Assembly (NCBI GenBank): GCA_009691685.1
Contig: SIAU01000009.1
Coordinates: 1-45,867 of the forward strand
From: Opitutales bacterium
Lineage (GTDB): Bacteria; Verrucomicrobiota; Verrucomicrobiia; Opitutales; UBA953
Direction: 5' to 3'
DNA length: 45,867 bases
The notes under the pieces were generated by a model, which worked only from the letters and a program-made list of their open reading frames with translations, searched no databases and was not told the DNA's origin. A program made the translations under genes and the position numbers. This document shows, in pieces, positions 34,440-38,451 of this stretch (positions within the stretch are counted from its first letter, which is position 1; every line of letters starts with the position of its first letter).

Positions 34440-35684
34440 ATGTCTGACTCTTACATCCAAAATCTCTTCGCTGAACGCATTGGCGGAATTAATTACGGTA
34501 AATCGACTGCGATTTATAAATTTGAAAAAATTAAGCGTGCGAAGGCCGCGGCAAAAAAAGCGAAGCCCGATGTCGCATTGATTGATCTCGGAGTAGGGGA
34601 GCCCGATGAAATGGCTTTTCCTCAAGTGGTGAAAGCTTTGCAGGTTGAAGCCGCGAAAGCCGAGAATCGTGGTTACGCGGATAACGGTGGAGCCGATTTC
34701 CGTTTAGCCGGCGCGCGTTACCTCAAAAATCTTTTTAATGTTACCATCGATCCGGAGACCGAAATTCTCCACTCGATTGGATCCAAAGCCGCCCTCACAC
34801 TTTTACCGGCCTGCTTTATCAATCCTGGTGATGTCGTGTTAATGACTGTTCCTGGCTACCCCGTACTCGGAACCCACGCTAAATATTATGGCGGCGTGGT
34901 TCATAATATGAAATTAACCGCCGAGCATAATTTCCTGCCTGATTTAAAATCAATCCCCGCCGATGTTTTAGCGAAGGCTAAGGTAATGGTATTAAATTAT
35001 CCGAATAACCCCACGGGCGCTTGTGCAACGCTGAAGTTCTACGAAGAGGTCGTCGCTTTTGCAAAGACCCATAATTTGATTGTGGTTCAAGATGCGGCTT
35101 ACGGTTCGCTTCACTTTGGCAGTGAGCAGGTTTCTATTTTACAAGTGCCTGGAGCTAAGGACGTAGCCGTTGAACTTCACACACTTTCCAAGAGTCACAA
35201 TATGACGGGCTGGCGTATTGGTTTCGTCGCGGGCAATTCACACATCGTACGTGCTTATGGTGACGTGAAGGACAATTCCGACTCCGGACAGTTTTTAGGA
35301 ATTCAAAAAGCAGGCGTTGCGGGTCTCGATGACGTTTCGATCCCTCGTGCCATCGCTGCTAAATATTCTCGTCGGATGGATAAACTCGTCGGTGTTCTGG
35401 CAAAGCTCGGTTTCCAAGTGCGTAAACCTGGTGCCGGCTTCTTCTTGTACATGCCCGCTCCTAAGTCGGCCACTGGTCCAAATGGCACCGTTCAATTTGA
35501 TTCGGGCGAAGCTTTTTCTCAGTGGATGATTTCCGAACATTTAATTTCTACCGTGCCCTGGGATGATTGCGGATTCTTCGTCCGCTTCTCGGTGACCTTT
35601 GTTTCGGAAAAAGGTGAGGCGGGTGAAGCCGAGGTCATTGCCGAGGTCGAACGACGTTTAACCCCCTGGAAATTCAATTTCTAA
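34440..35684 (+). CDS. dapL: LL-diaminopimelate aminotransferase
   Basis: A 414-residue PLP enzyme that converts tetrahydrodipicolinate directly to LL-diaminopimelate, the short route to lysine and peptidoglycan used by Chlamydiae, Verrucomicrobia and some others. Motifs: INYGKSTAIYKFEKIKRAK, LGVGEPDEMAFP, GYADNGGADFRLAGARYL, LNYPNNPTGA, DAAYGSLHF and the PLP-lysine in TLSKSHNMTGWRIGF (Lys251). The protein is in one piece with a normal length. Promoter candidates upstream are weak (TTGACC near 34392 has no good -10). Confidence 0.92.
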   Translation: MSDSYIQNLFAERIGGINYGKSTAIYKFEKIKRAKAAAKKAKPDVALIDLGVGEPDEMAFPQVVKALQVEAAKAENRGYADNGGADFRLAGARYLKNLFNVTIDPETEILHSIGSKAALTLLPACFINPGDVVLMTVPGYPVLGTHAKYYGGVVHNMKLTAEHNFLPDLKSIPADVLAKAKVMVLNYPNNPTGACATLKFYEEVVAFAKTHNLIVVQDAAYGSLHFGSEQVSILQVPGAKDVAVELHTLSKSHNMTGWRIGFVAGNSHIVRAYGDVKDNSDSGQFLGIQKAGVAGLDDVSIPRAIAAKYSRRMDKLVGVLAKLGFQVRKPGAGFFLYMPAPKSATGPNGTVQFDSGEAFSQWMISEHLISTVPWDDCGFFVRFSVTFVSEKGEAGEAEVIAEVERRLTPWKFNF

Positions 35685-35709
35685 GAGATTTTAGCTAGTT
35701 TCTGTCGGA

Positions 35710-35738
35710 TTGACAGGGGTGGGGTTAATTGGTCAGAT
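35710..35738 (+). promoter_or_regulatory. tRNA-Phe promoter
   Basis: A perfect TTGACA (35710-35715), a 17-base spacer and a weak TCAGAT (35733-35738) would start transcription about 10 bases before the tRNA. The -35 match is strong and the -10 poor. Confidence 0.5.
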
Positions 35739-35754
35739 TCACTTTCTAGTTTAT

Positions 35755-35830
35755 GGCCTGATAGCTCAGTTGGTAGAGCAGGCGCCTGAAGAGCGCCGTG
35801 TCGTTGGTTCGATTCCGACTCAGGCCACCA
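35755..35830 (+). tRNA. tRNA-Phe (anticodon GAA)
   Basis: A 76-base tRNA with encoded CCA. Acceptor GGCCTGA/TCAGGCC, anticodon stem GGCGC/GCGCC around the loop CTGAAGA, T-loop GGTTCGATTCC. It follows dapL by 70 bases and is followed by a terminator. Confidence 0.97.
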
Positions 35831-35838
35831 CTTTAAGA

Positions 35839-35864
35839 AACCCGTTTGAAACCTCAGACGGGTT
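35839..35864. terminator. terminator after tRNA-Phe, shared with the convergent gene
   Basis: AACCCGTTTGA pairs with TCAGACGGGTT (35854-35864) in an 11-bp stem with one T.G pair and a 4-base loop, followed by ATCTTTT on the plus strand. The minus-strand gene ends at 35863 inside it. Confidence 0.75.
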
Positions 35865-36618
35865 ATCTTTTGAAGAGTAAACGGAGGAGGTGAAATCTTT
35901 CGCCGTGATCGAGCGGCGGCACAAAAGAATTATCCATGCCGTGGTTAATTAAAGTAATCCGTTTCGCTTCCTTGCTTACTTTGTCGCCCTTGGTTGTTTC
36001 TTCTACCCATTCTGCCTTAACGATGCCGAAGGGGATGGATTCAACTCGCCAGACGGTTCCCTCGATTTTGATGACTTGGTTTTTTATGAAGGGTGGATTT
36101 ATATTAGTAGTACAAATCATATGCAATTTTTTGCATTCATAAGTTTTATTTTGGAAATCTAAGCGTTCCGTTTTTTTATCGTCCACTAAAGTATTTTCGG
36201 TAGAGTAACCCGCAGTCTTCGCGAGGAATTTGACATCTTCGGGCAGCAAATGCCATGGGCCGGTTTTAGAATTTGAAAAAAGAATTTCGGCAGAGGACTC
36301 TAGTAATTTATTAGCGCCTTCCCGGTCGAGGTCTTTGGGTACTAAAAATCTTAAAGGGGCTTTTTCGCGCGACCCCAACCAGGCCACCGGTTCAATATTA
36401 AGCCAGACGTACGTTTTGCCATTTACTTCACCGGCCGCCCAAACGGAAAGTTTTATCTCGGGGGCTTTATCGGTCTTTGGAATATCAGTGCGGGCAATTT
36501 CGTAGGTTGCCCAGGAGCCAGCGGGCGGGAGATTTTCTGCGAAAATATTCCACTGGGCTTGGACCTCCGTGCAGAGTCCAAGGGTGAGCCCAAGGCAGAA
36601 AGTTTTAACCCATTTCAC
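35863..36618 (-). CDS. secreted protein of unknown function
   Basis: A 251-residue protein with a clear signal peptide (MKWVKTFCLGLTLGLCTEVQA, cleavage near residue 21). The mature part is beta-rich with many Lys/Glu/Trp. SWATYEIARTD and VWLNIEPVAWLG suggest an assayable surface or periplasmic domain, but I recognise no family. It is convergent with tRNA-Phe and divergent from the cimA leader. It may be an ordinary accessory lipoprotein-like gene, but there is no lipobox. Confidence 0.75.
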   Translation of the reverse strand: MKWVKTFCLGLTLGLCTEVQAQWNIFAENLPPAGSWATYEIARTDIPKTDKAPEIKLSVWAAGEVNGKTYVWLNIEPVAWLGSREKAPLRFLVPKDLDREGANKLLESSAEILFSNSKTGPWHLLPEDVKFLAKTAGYSTENTLVDDKKTERLDFQNKTYECKKLHMICTTNINPPFIKNQVIKIEGTVWRVESIPFGIVKAEWVEETTKGDKVSKEAKRITLINHGMDNSFVPPLDHGERFHLLRLLFKR

Positions 36619-36676
36619 GTTTCGACCCTAAATTGCTGATTTTGGCCTGTCGAGTGCCTATCTTTTGCCTTTGTCT

Positions 36677-36705
36677 TTGACTCAATGTAAGGGCTTAATT
36701 TTAGT
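36677..36705 (+). promoter_or_regulatory. candidate promoter of the cimA leader
   Basis: TTGACT (36677-36682), a 17-base spacer, TTTAGT (36700-36705). It is a moderate match, and transcription would begin only a few bases before the ATG of the leader peptide. The alternative -10 TTAAAT (36705-36710) has a 22-base spacer. Confidence 0.35.
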
Positions 36706-36717
36706 TAAATCTCTCCT

Positions 36718-36801
36718 ATGGAATGCACGATACAGTCATCGACAAATCAGCCCTTGAGTGGTTGTGCCTTAATTCCTGCGATTATTATTATCGGGTTATA
36801 A
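36718..36801 (+). CDS. putative isoleucine-rich leader peptide of cimA
   Basis: A 27-codon frame, ATG at 36718 to TAA at 36799, ending in Ala, four successive Ile codons (ATT ATT ATT ATC, 36781-36792), Gly, Leu and stop. Six of 27 codons are Ile (ATA, ATT, ATT, ATT, ATT, ATC). It lies directly before two mutually exclusive hairpins and before cimA, the first enzyme of a branch that leads to isoleucine. There is no visible Shine-Dalgarno sequence, as for most genes here. A second frame starting at ATG 36723 runs through the same codons as Asp-Tyr-Tyr-Tyr-Arg and does not stop before the hairpins; it is the less sensible reading. Confidence 0.55.
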   Translation: MECTIQSSTNQPLSGCALIPAIIIIGL

Positions 36802-36803
36802 TT

Positions 36804-36867
36804 CCGCGAACGGATCGCTTTAGCGAATTCCCGTTCCGCGGCAAATCGGAGCGGCGGTCTATCTTTT
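36804..36867 (+). promoter_or_regulatory. candidate transcription attenuator of cimA (competing hairpins)
   Basis: Segment A, CCGCGAACGG (36804-36813), pairs with segment B, CCGTTCCGCGG (36831-36841): ten pairs with one bulge, enclosing a small TCGC-TTTA-GCGA hairpin (36815-36826). B (CCGTTCCG, 36831-36838) can instead pair with C, CGGAGCGG (36847-36854): eight pairs with one T.G and an 8-base loop, followed by CGGTCTATCTTTT. A:B would be the antiterminator and B:C the terminator. A ribosome at the leader stop would cover A and favour B:C; one stalled on the Ile codons would leave A free. The T-run starts about nine bases after the stem, so termination efficiency is uncertain. Confidence 0.5.
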
Positions 36868-36894
36868 AAAACAACCCAACATTTACAAACTAAC

Positions 36895-38451
36895 ATGGCT
36901 CGAAAAATCGAAATCTACGACACCACTCTCCGCGACGGATCGCAGGGGCTGGGGATTCATTTCTCGGTAGCCGACAAATTGCGCGTGGCGCAGGAGCTGG
37001 AACGTTTTGGCGTAACTTACATCGAGGGCGGCTGGCCCGGTTCCAACCCTCGCGATATCGAATTTTTCGCGGAAGCCCGCAAATTAAAATTTAAGAAAGC
37101 GAAACTCGCGGCGTTTGGATCTACTCGCAAGAAAGGGGTCCGTGCCGCTGAGGATAGTCAGGTTAGAGGCCTCCTTGAGGTACATACTCCGGTGGTCACC
37201 ATTTACGGTAAGACATCGGCCTTACACGTTCGTGAAGTTCTTCGCTGCACACCCGAAGAAAATTTAGCGATGATTGCGGATACCGTGGCTTATTTAAAGT
37301 CGCACGGCCGTGAAGTCGTTTACGATTGTGAACACGCCATCGACGGCTGGAAGGATGATCCGCAATACGCACTGGCTTGCTTTAAGGCGGCGGCGGATGC
37401 GGGAGCTTCCCGCATTGTTTTATGTGATACTAACGGTGGATCGTTGCCTGATGAAGTTGCGGCCTGCACACGCGCGGCGATGTCGGCTGTGAAAGCAGCC
37501 ATCGGCATCCACACCCACGACGACTCGGGATTAGCTTTAGCGAACGCATTAGCCTCGCTCGACGCAGGTGCCATGCATGTGCAAGGCACGATGAATGGCA
37601 TCGGCGAACGGACGGGCAATTGTGATTTAACGGCGGTCATACCTGTGGCTCAAATCAAACGCGGATGGAGTTGTGTTCCCGCAAGTTCACTCCGCCGCCT
37701 CACCGAACTTTCTCGTTTTATCGATGGTGTGACTAATCAAGCACCCGATCCTCGTCGCCCATGGGTAGGTGCTGCTGCGTTTGCGCATAAAGGTGGAACG
37801 CACGTGGATGCGGTACGAAAATTTTCGGCCGCTTATGAACACATCGACCCCGCAACCGTAGGTAATGCCCGAGATGTTTTAGTGAGCGATCAGTCGGGTC
37901 GCAGTAATTTATTAATGAAGGCGGCCGAGTTAGGAATCGAATTAGACAAAGATGCACCATCAACCAAAGCGGCTTTAGAAGAGTTGAAGAAACTCGAACA
38001 CCAAGGTTGGAGTTTTGAAGATGCGGATGCGTCGCTGGTTTTATTACTTCGACGTCATTTAGGTAAGACTGCGGTAGTGCCCTTTGAAGTCGTGAATTAT
38101 AATGTATCGATCCAAGGTGGCAGTAAGTCGGCTTCGTGTGAGGCGACCATCCGTATGCGCGTTGATGGTAAAGAGTCTTTGACTGTCGCGGATGGAGAGG
38201 GTCCTGTTCATGCATTAGACCAAGCTCTACGTAAGGCTTTAGTTAAAGCATTTCCCAAACTTAAAAAAGTTCATCTCGCCGATTACAAAGTTCGCGTCCT
38301 GGCGGGCCAAGATGGCACTTCGGCGAAGACGCGCGTAGTCGTGCGCTCAACCGATGGCAAAAAATCCTGGGGCACCGTCGGCGTTAGTGCTAATTTAGTT
38401 GAAGCTTCCCTGCGAGCGATTGTCGAAGGCTACGCACACGCTTTGGTTTAA
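36895..38451 (+). CDS. cimA: (R)-citramalate synthase
   Basis: A 518-residue cytoplasmic enzyme that condenses pyruvate and acetyl-CoA to citramalate, an isoleucine route that bypasses threonine. The catalytic-domain start is IYDTTLRDGSQGLG (Asp9, Arg13, Asp14), with YIEGGWPGSNPRD, metal-binding IHTHDDSGLALANA, and GTMNGIGERTGNCDL. The C-terminal half carries a LeuA-type allosteric dimer domain (about 400-515). The GGWPGSNPRD motif and overall length of about 520 match citramalate synthases (TIGR00977-like) rather than isopropylmalate synthase. The leader before it suggests isoleucine-responsive attenuation. No leuCD genes follow; the next gene is an esterase 3 bases on. Confidence 0.92.
   Translation: MARKIEIYDTTLRDGSQGLGIHFSVADKLRVAQELERFGVTYIEGGWPGSNPRDIEFFAEARKLKFKKAKLAAFGSTRKKGVRAAEDSQVRGLLEVHTPVVTIYGKTSALHVREVLRCTPEENLAMIADTVAYLKSHGREVVYDCEHAIDGWKDDPQYALACFKAAADAGASRIVLCDTNGGSLPDEVAACTRAAMSAVKAAIGIHTHDDSGLALANALASLDAGAMHVQGTMNGIGERTGNCDLTAVIPVAQIKRGWSCVPASSLRRLTELSRFIDGVTNQAPDPRRPWVGAAAFAHKGGTHVDAVRKFSAAYEHIDPATVGNARDVLVSDQSGRSNLLMKAAELGIELDKDAPSTKAALEELKKLEHQGWSFEDADASLVLLLRRHLGKTAVVPFEVVNYNVSIQGGSKSASCEATIRMRVDGKESLTVADGEGPVHALDQALRKALVKAFPKLKKVHLADYKVRVLAGQDGTSAKTRVVVRSTDGKKSWGTVGVSANLVEASLRAIVEGYAHALV

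Follow-up and report, generated by a model that had tools for sequence, protein, structure and literature searches.

A conserved isoleucine-codon leader and competing hairpins, a probable attenuator, precede the citramalate synthase gene in a genus of Opitutales

Citramalate synthase catalyzes the first step of a route to isoleucine, and its gene, cimA, is preceded in an Opitutales genome by a short stretch that a preliminary description had read as a probable transcription attenuator. Does this stretch act as a switch that reads isoleucine, and if so, how would it stop expression of the gene? The window analyzed here is a stretch of 45,867 nucleotides from an assembly of 1.33 Mb that is 88% complete, and all features described below lie on its + strand. 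The proposed identity of the gene (36895-38451) holds, as its product matches TIGR00977 with 652.9 bits against a cut-off of 450. Copies of cimA that are 98% identical to that of the window are present in Opitutales bacterium and uncultured Opitutae bacterium sequences.

Taken alone, the stretch in the window is unremarkable. Its fold (36677-36894) is no better than those of dinucleotide shuffles (z -0.43; 70 of 200 shuffles equally good), and a consensus scan passed neither a sigma-70-type promoter nor a U-tract terminator. An Rfam covariance-model search of positions 35600-37000 up to an E value of 1 returned nothing at the leader, its output being confined to one tRNA and a match below threshold (E 0.53) that overlies it. 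A gathering-score search of 18 related loci likewise found tRNAs only, and hence no riboswitch, T-box or described leader. A known Rfam RNA family was rejected as the identity of the cimA leader, for want of any covariance-model match. A tRNA-Phe gene (anticodon gaa) lies at 35755-35830, also on the + strand, between an aminotransferase gene and a gene divergent from cimA. The element stands above chance because it is conserved in relatives.

We found cimA in 47 of 57 relatives. Within the window's genus, 49 genomes have a cimA match, and 44 of them gave an upstream region; the other five (G008, G270, G333, G357, and G348) were unused, their cimA being partial or its place unlisted. Further copies from the same genomes were not counted (L105-L117, L119, L120, L140, and L144, together with L083 and L084, which are the same as L122 and L126). 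Locus L021 is included among the 44 loci scored for Ile frames and left out of the 43 that underlie the leader, promoter, and spacer counts.

The leader frame (36718-36801) opens with an ATG at 36718, runs for 27 codons (MECTIQSSTNQPLSGCALIPAIIIIGL), and closes with a TAA at 36799-36801, its end reading Ile-Ile-Ile-Ile-Gly-Leu-stop, exactly where it had been placed before. Its four consecutive Ile codons, ATT ATT ATT ATC (36781-36792), would be the regulatory codons, and Ile is kept in the relatives. A frame with at least 3 Ile codons in 8 precedes cimA in 43 of the 44 same-genus loci, with at least 4 in 38 and at least 5 in 26, counts that come from related rather than independent sequences; shuffles lead one to expect 0.8, 0.05, and 0 of 44, respectively. 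The sole miss is L021, whose contig begins inside the leader. A typical leader peptide of the genus is MESLAQSSTSLRSAAGRAIIPAIITIIGL, and 33 of the 38 distinct leaders carry 3 to 5 Ile among their last nine residues, with only 2 in the other five. The leader alignment holds two gaps of three bases each. Compared pairwise, the 38 distinct leaders show 1113 third-position changes in the last nine columns against 415 and 473 at the other two positions, whereas over the whole leader the third position is hardly in excess (5614 against 5111 and 5046). Because this excess is strong at the end and slight overall, selection on the peptide appears to be visible mainly at the Ile-rich end. The region therefore holds a short leader that contains consecutive codons for the product amino acid; its frame and Ile codons are conserved, its third positions are biased over the last nine columns, and its translation is predicted.

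Across 400 kb of one same-genus genome (G016), 3 of 314 predicted genes have a frame with at least 4 Ile codons in 8 upstream; gene starts there are longest-ORF guesses, and in our reading this is why cimA's own leader is missing from the three. An Ile leader before other branched-chain genes was considered and rejected, as no frame of this kind lies upstream of any of 25 ilvB and 24 leuA genes. These sets exclude 5 of 30 ilvB and 2 of 26 leuA loci as paralogues or truncated, and one leuA has only 183 nt upstream.

The preliminary description had also placed two mutually exclusive pairings, A:B and B:C, between the leader and cimA. Both are present at those positions and nearly invariant in the genus, and we refer to A, B, and C as segments 2, 3, and 4. 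Segment 2 (CCGCGAACGG, 36804-36813) pairs with segment 3 (CCGTTCCGCGG, 36831-36841) through 10 pairs with one bulged base in the window, and segment 3, common to both structures, pairs alternatively with segment 4 (CGGAGCGG, 36847-36854) through 8 pairs, one of them G-U. The latter pairing, 3:4, is the presumed stop structure. Two hairpins had been missed. One is a 1:2 hairpin over Gly-Leu-stop (36792-36806), which completes a four-segment layout of the trp type; the other is a variable apical hairpin, TCGC/GCGA (36815-36826), between segments 2 and 3. The window's 1:2 hairpin consists only of CGGG (36792-36795) with TCCG (36803-36806), in place of the CGGGCT/AGCCCG of most relatives.

We assessed these pairings in a same-genus alignment, A1, which retains 39 distinct sequences of 44 rows, L073 being without the anchor motif and four further rows identical to others. 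Its segments are CGGGCU over the last codons (1), AGCCCGCUGAACGG (2), CCGUUCCGCGGC (3), and CGGAACGG (4). Pairing is found in 99.0% of cells for 2:3, where 6 of the 10 pairs never vary, in 96.2% for both 1:2 and 3:4, and in 89.0% for the apical hairpin; sliding the partners by 1-3 columns lowers it to 14-56%. The core columns of segments 2-4 have a mean identity of 0.977, with 19 of 29 invariant. The corresponding mean is 0.867 in the apical hairpin and 0.690 in the remaining columns after the leader stop, of which 1 of 39 is invariant. The comparison with close relatives, on which the first reading had been made to stand or fall, therefore finds both the Ile codons and the pairing conserved. 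Covariation, proposed as a further check, is present in part: both sides change in 3 of the 5 pairs of the apical hairpin and in one pair of 1:2, but covariation looks thin in the core. For 2:3 together with the apical hairpin, the 3 double-change pairs are reached by 4 of 500 shuffles, and slid versions show 0-2. For 1:2 with 3:4, the one double-change pair lies in 1:2, where two sequences (L122 and L126) swap C-G for G-C; one such pair arises in 71 of 500 shuffles, and two such cells in 2 of 500. Little covariation may be expected here because segment 3 has two partners, and invariance is what a switch would impose. A larger terminator, built from the apical arm and the bases after segment 4, is possible in the window and, by eye, in few relatives, and it was dropped as not conserved.

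We folded the 44 copies with a ribosome whose leading edge was set 13 nt beyond the first A-site base. Placed at the leader stop, it gives 3:4 in 38 copies, 2:3 in 1, and neither in 5. With the ribosome 3, 4, 5, and 6 codons before the stop, 2:3 forms in 36, 37, 40, and 41 copies, respectively; with no ribosome, 2:3 forms in 22, 3:4 in 21, and neither in 1. The codons 3-6 before the stop encode Ile in 27-residue leaders such as the window's (with one Met or Val in some), and in most of the 29-residue leaders the fifth codon before the stop encodes Thr, Gly or Asn. In most of the genus, a ribosome at the Ile codons and one at the stop thus select opposite folds, which supports the sense of regulation originally suggested. 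Folding the two alternatives was less favorable for the window's own sequence, which does not switch at equilibrium. In the window, L003, and L073, the fold with a stalled ribosome remains 3:4, and in the window and L003, the fold with the ribosome at the stop is neither 3:4 nor 2:3. By these predictions, the window's copy is among the weaker ones.

A promoter-like pair (36677-36705) lies upstream of the leader and consists of TTGACT (36677-36682), a 17-nt spacer, and TTTAGT (36700-36705), a weak match on which the consensus scan was silent. Of 43 same-genus loci, 42 have TTGACT 37-42 nt 5' of the leader ATG, and because of this position, transcription probably starts some 5-7 nt before the ATG. 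The lack of a Shine-Dalgarno sequence before the leader had been named as a weak point of the proposal. The sequence is indeed absent, but this seems a weak objection, since SD-like 4-mers precede only 54 of the 314 predicted G016 genes, near chance by a hand estimate, and the leader would begin only about 5-7 nt after the expected transcription start.

We consider it probable that the region is an isoleucine-sensing, leader-peptide-controlled, four-segment attenuator of cimA. Transcription would start a short way upstream of the leader ATG, and translation of the leader would follow at once. With ample charged Ile-tRNA, the ribosome would reach the stop at 36799 and cover segment 2, 3:4 would pair, and cimA expression would be stopped. 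With isoleucine in short supply, the ribosome would wait on the Ile codons and cover segment 1, which would leave segment 2 free; 2:3 would then form, 3:4 could not, and cimA would be expressed. When no ribosome is present, 1:2 would be made first and should favor 3:4, a point on which the equilibrium folds are undecided. As far as sequence can indicate, the region before cimA is very probably a switch that confines isoleucine synthesis to shortage. The sensing half of this switch is strongly supported. From the features above, we infer its other half, namely that 3:4 acts by stopping transcription, as well as that isoleucine is the cellular signal and that the window's weaker copy remains functional.

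How 3:4 would stop transcription is less obvious, and here one part of the preliminary description was not borne out. B:C had been taken for a terminator, and a U-tract terminator is predicted in none of the 44 same-genus cimA leader copies. The T-run reported nine bases beyond segment 4 in the window is there, as the TTTT of TATCTTTT (36860-36867), at a distance at which 3:4 is not directly followed by a U-tract. TATCTTTT opens a spacer to cimA (36860-36894) that has 0 G in 35 bases. Across 43 same-genus loci, the spacer measures 21-49 nt to the cimA start and, after its first 8 nt, consists of 49.6% C, 27.6% T, 22.1% A, and 0.7% G, with no G at all in 35 of the 43. Ordinary U-tract terminators do occur elsewhere in the genus, for example upstream of leuA. 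At convergent gene ends in G016, a hairpin of at least 7 pairs is present on 27 of 58 sides, and on 8 of 58 such a hairpin is followed by 8 bases of which at least 5 are T.

Rho-dependent leader attenuators are known from the tna/mgt type, and the C-rich, nearly G-free spacer has the composition of a Rho landing site that leader translation or 3:4 could gate. However, a search with the Rho profile TIGR00767 (E <= 1e-20) found no Rho in 31 of 31 same-genus genomes (G000-G024, G057, G151, G163, G172, G209, and G218), which are incomplete assemblies with a completeness of at least 90% in 15 cases. Nor did it find Rho in 3 of 3 genomes of genus g23 (G128, G278, and G341). The same search succeeds elsewhere: all 7 of 7 genomes taken from three other genera of the family carry two copies, and 12 of 13 other families give matches with E <= 1e-137. 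Rho seems to have been lost in the clade of the window's genus and g23. Since it was not found in any of the 31 same-genus genomes, Rho is unlikely to supply the missing stop step, and we regard Rho-dependent attenuation as nearly refuted and exceedingly improbable.

The choice between 2:3 and 3:4 could also alter the translation of cimA or the stability of its mRNA rather than termination. The missing U-tract terminators and the missing Rho would both fit such post-transcriptional control, as would a short and almost G-free spacer, which suits an unstructured ribosome landing site. Yet the cimA start region lies outside both hairpins, and its predicted accessibility from -20 to +12 is alike in the two states (mean 0.71 with a stalled ribosome and 0.73 with the ribosome at the stop; a difference above 0.1 in 1 of 44 loci), which leaves masking of the start by the hairpins unsupported. 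Family f14, moreover, has U-tract terminators between its leaders and cimA. We thus view post-transcriptional control as rather unlikely and, given the terminators that f14 has at the corresponding position, favor transcriptional arrest at 3:4 as the most likely mode of action.

Another reading is that the element is functional in most members of the genus and that the version in the window's species is weakened, perhaps inactive. The window's 1:2 hairpin has 4 pairs instead of 6, its segment 2 is short of a base, its fold does not switch at equilibrium, and the covariance model R1 scores it at 94 bits against up to 138.2 in relatives. One base of segment 2 and part of 1:2 are also absent from L003 and L073. 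Still, the branch of L001, L003, and L073 keeps the frame, the four Ile codons, the promoter-like box, and segments 2, 3, and 4, and 3 of the 8 bases following segment 4 in the window are T, a count that 3 of 43 loci attain. Equilibrium folds also ignore the order of synthesis, which should favor 2:3. Decay of the window's copy therefore strikes us as improbable. That a random Ile-rich frame happens to lie beside random complementarity would agree with a single-sequence fold no better than shuffles, but this is refuted by the conservation of the frame and the segments and by the distribution of R1, and we give it practically no credence.

R1 matches 44 of 53 same-genus genomes and no other genus in a 372-genome survey of the order. 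The main matches lie directly upstream of the listed place of cimA in 43 of the 44, the place of cimA in the remaining genome (G348) being unlisted. Nine same-genus genomes lack an R1 match; cimA itself goes unmatched in five of them and is matched only partially in the other four. An apparent second copy in G355 (28 bits) was rejected as a chance match at a gene end with an ordinary U-tract terminator; the gene that follows is, by eye, presumably aroC. In the neighboring genus g23, no such leader is found at 5 of 5 cimA loci, and cimA is 80-82% identical where full. A frame with 3 Ile at -262 of one g23 locus (L072) was taken as lying inside a neighboring gene. On the cimA tree, g23 falls beside part of the window's genus with weak support (80/65).

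Outside the genus, we examined 119 of 225 cimA-bearing genomes, a non-random set drawn from listed places and chosen families, in which cimA is preceded by a frame with at least 3 Ile in 8 in 34, at least 4 in 19, and at least 5 in 7, against shuffle expectations of 6.9, 0.97, and 0.05 of 119. A U-tract terminator is predicted between leader and cimA in 10 of the 19 loci with at least 4 Ile, all 10 of them in family f14, in 3 of 15 with 3 Ile, and in 1 of 85 without a leader. Because the scan allows A-T pairing to continue the stem into the U-run, these counts are underestimates, and similar terminators are visible by eye at L085, L173, and L198. We folded the 10 f14 loci with a predicted terminator as they would be before its 3' arm is made. 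A ribosome on the first Ile codon then leaves more of the 5' arm paired upstream than one at the stop does, in all 10 loci. Compared with the stop again, a ribosome on the last Ile codon leaves more of it paired in 7, as much in 1, and less in 2. The three 3-Ile loci with a terminator, compared between the first Ile codon and the stop, give one case each of more, equal, and less. The f14 leaders (e.g., L178, L185, L190, and L229), found in this analysis, resemble those of the window's genus in target gene, Ile-run leader, and a terminator arm that competes with the leader region. They also share a T(T/C)GAC box 36-43 nt upstream of an in-frame start of the leader; across the order, 11 of 19 strong leader loci have such a box, as do 5.3% of random positions in the same upstream regions. 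They differ in ending PG....A, in showing no sequence likeness to the genus version, and in having a full intrinsic terminator with a U-tract.

Other cimA leaders of the order are of further designs. Those of family f21 (L045, L048, L049, L050, L053, L057, L061, and L062) end IS-stop, some being Ile-rich and others recognizable only by eye, and GGGG(C/T)CGG-like bases right after the stop can pair with a later CCGG(C/T)(C/T)CC-like stretch. Several families (L035, L098, L101, L212, and L227) have possible leaders ending RIR-stop or RIS-stop that are accompanied by similar bases, CGAATT, which hints at common descent. At a further group of loci outside the genus (L121, L123-L125, L127-L139, L141-L143, L145-L152, L154-L167, and L169-L171), no frame has 4 Ile in 8, and only five have 3 (L121, L147, L155, L163, and L171). 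Upstream regions of 24 such loci, inspected by eye, show nothing resembling a leader with hairpins. Among the 25 ilvB upstream regions, three from three other families (L237, L240, and L258) have Val-run frames, VVVVTVDVVS, VVVVSVDVG, and VVVVVAVTKAPRGS, which are possible Val leaders. Two of the 24 leuA regions, from two other families (L280 and L281), have short frames ending LLRLLP and LRLLLP, possible Leu leaders. Short Leu-rich frames that resemble one another (..PLLF and ..AHLF) upstream of ilvB in the window's genus (L238, L239, L244, L246, and L255) were not counted as leaders because they overlap a conserved promoter-looking stretch, TTGCCC..TTTTCTAAC.

A bolder and more tentative picture would join these observations. 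In a genus without Rho, isoleucine might control cimA through a leader switch whose GC-rich stop hairpin has no U-tract, with RNA polymerase ending there or undergoing hairpin-stabilized pausing. Across the order, each committing enzyme of the branched-chain pathways (cimA by Ile, ilvB by Val, and leuA by Leu) might read its own product via its own leader peptide. We regard this combination as possible but doubtful.

In the trp, his, leu, and ilv attenuators of enterobacteria, a product-rich leader peptide precedes segments that form 1:2, 2:3, and 3:4 pairings, and the position of the ribosome decides among them. The element described here shares the product-rich leader, the three pairings, and, as predicted, the role of ribosome position; it differs in its target, cimA, in a 3:4 hairpin without a U-tract, in the absence of a Shine-Dalgarno sequence, and in a leader that is itself nearly leaderless. 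Judged on sequence, we take it to be a real, conserved, isoleucine-reading leader switch before cimA, and a variant of leader-peptide attenuation, because the U-tract terminator that defines the class was sought and not found in the genus.

The preliminary description knew of no such attenuator for cimA in Verrucomicrobiota, and in agreement with this, a search of open-licence full-text literature, mostly at the level of titles and abstract starts, returned no cimA or isoleucine leader attenuator from this phylum. According to the available parts of PMC2965389, knowledge of amino-acid leader peptides came mainly from Proteobacteria and Actinobacteria, to which 2010 added cases in Firmicutes; those parts make no mention of Verrucomicrob, Opitut, isoleucine or cimA, and the available part of PMC8632094 makes none of Opitut, verrucomicrob, cimA or citramalate. 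In Actinobacteria, leader peptides of ilvB come with terminators, and those of cys genes have no obvious ones; for the cys leaders, Rho-dependent termination was named as one possibility and, in the sections available, no conserved hairpins were reported (PMC1262725). Both resemble the element described here in having runs of regulatory codons before amino-acid genes, and the cys leaders likewise lack a clear terminator; in contrast to the cys leaders as described in those sections, Rho was not found here and the hairpins are conserved. The leucine-rich attenuator peptide of the Staphylococcus aureus ilv operon (PMC5794164) and the ilvBNC attenuator of Corynebacterium glutamicum (PMC11857589) are also branched-chain leader attenuators, of other phyla and other genes. 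As for stopping without a U-tract, the accessible portion of a 2026 study of Rho-less cyanobacteria describes many transcript ends without U-tracts (PMC13289151), and a heading in PMC8355165 states that poly A/U trails are not necessary.

The presence of leader peptides on cimA in an order of Verrucomicrobiota, in several unlike designs, suggests repeated invention or fast turnover of control. The version in the window's genus, with no U-tract and no Rho found, offers a testable case of stopping expression without either canonical signal.
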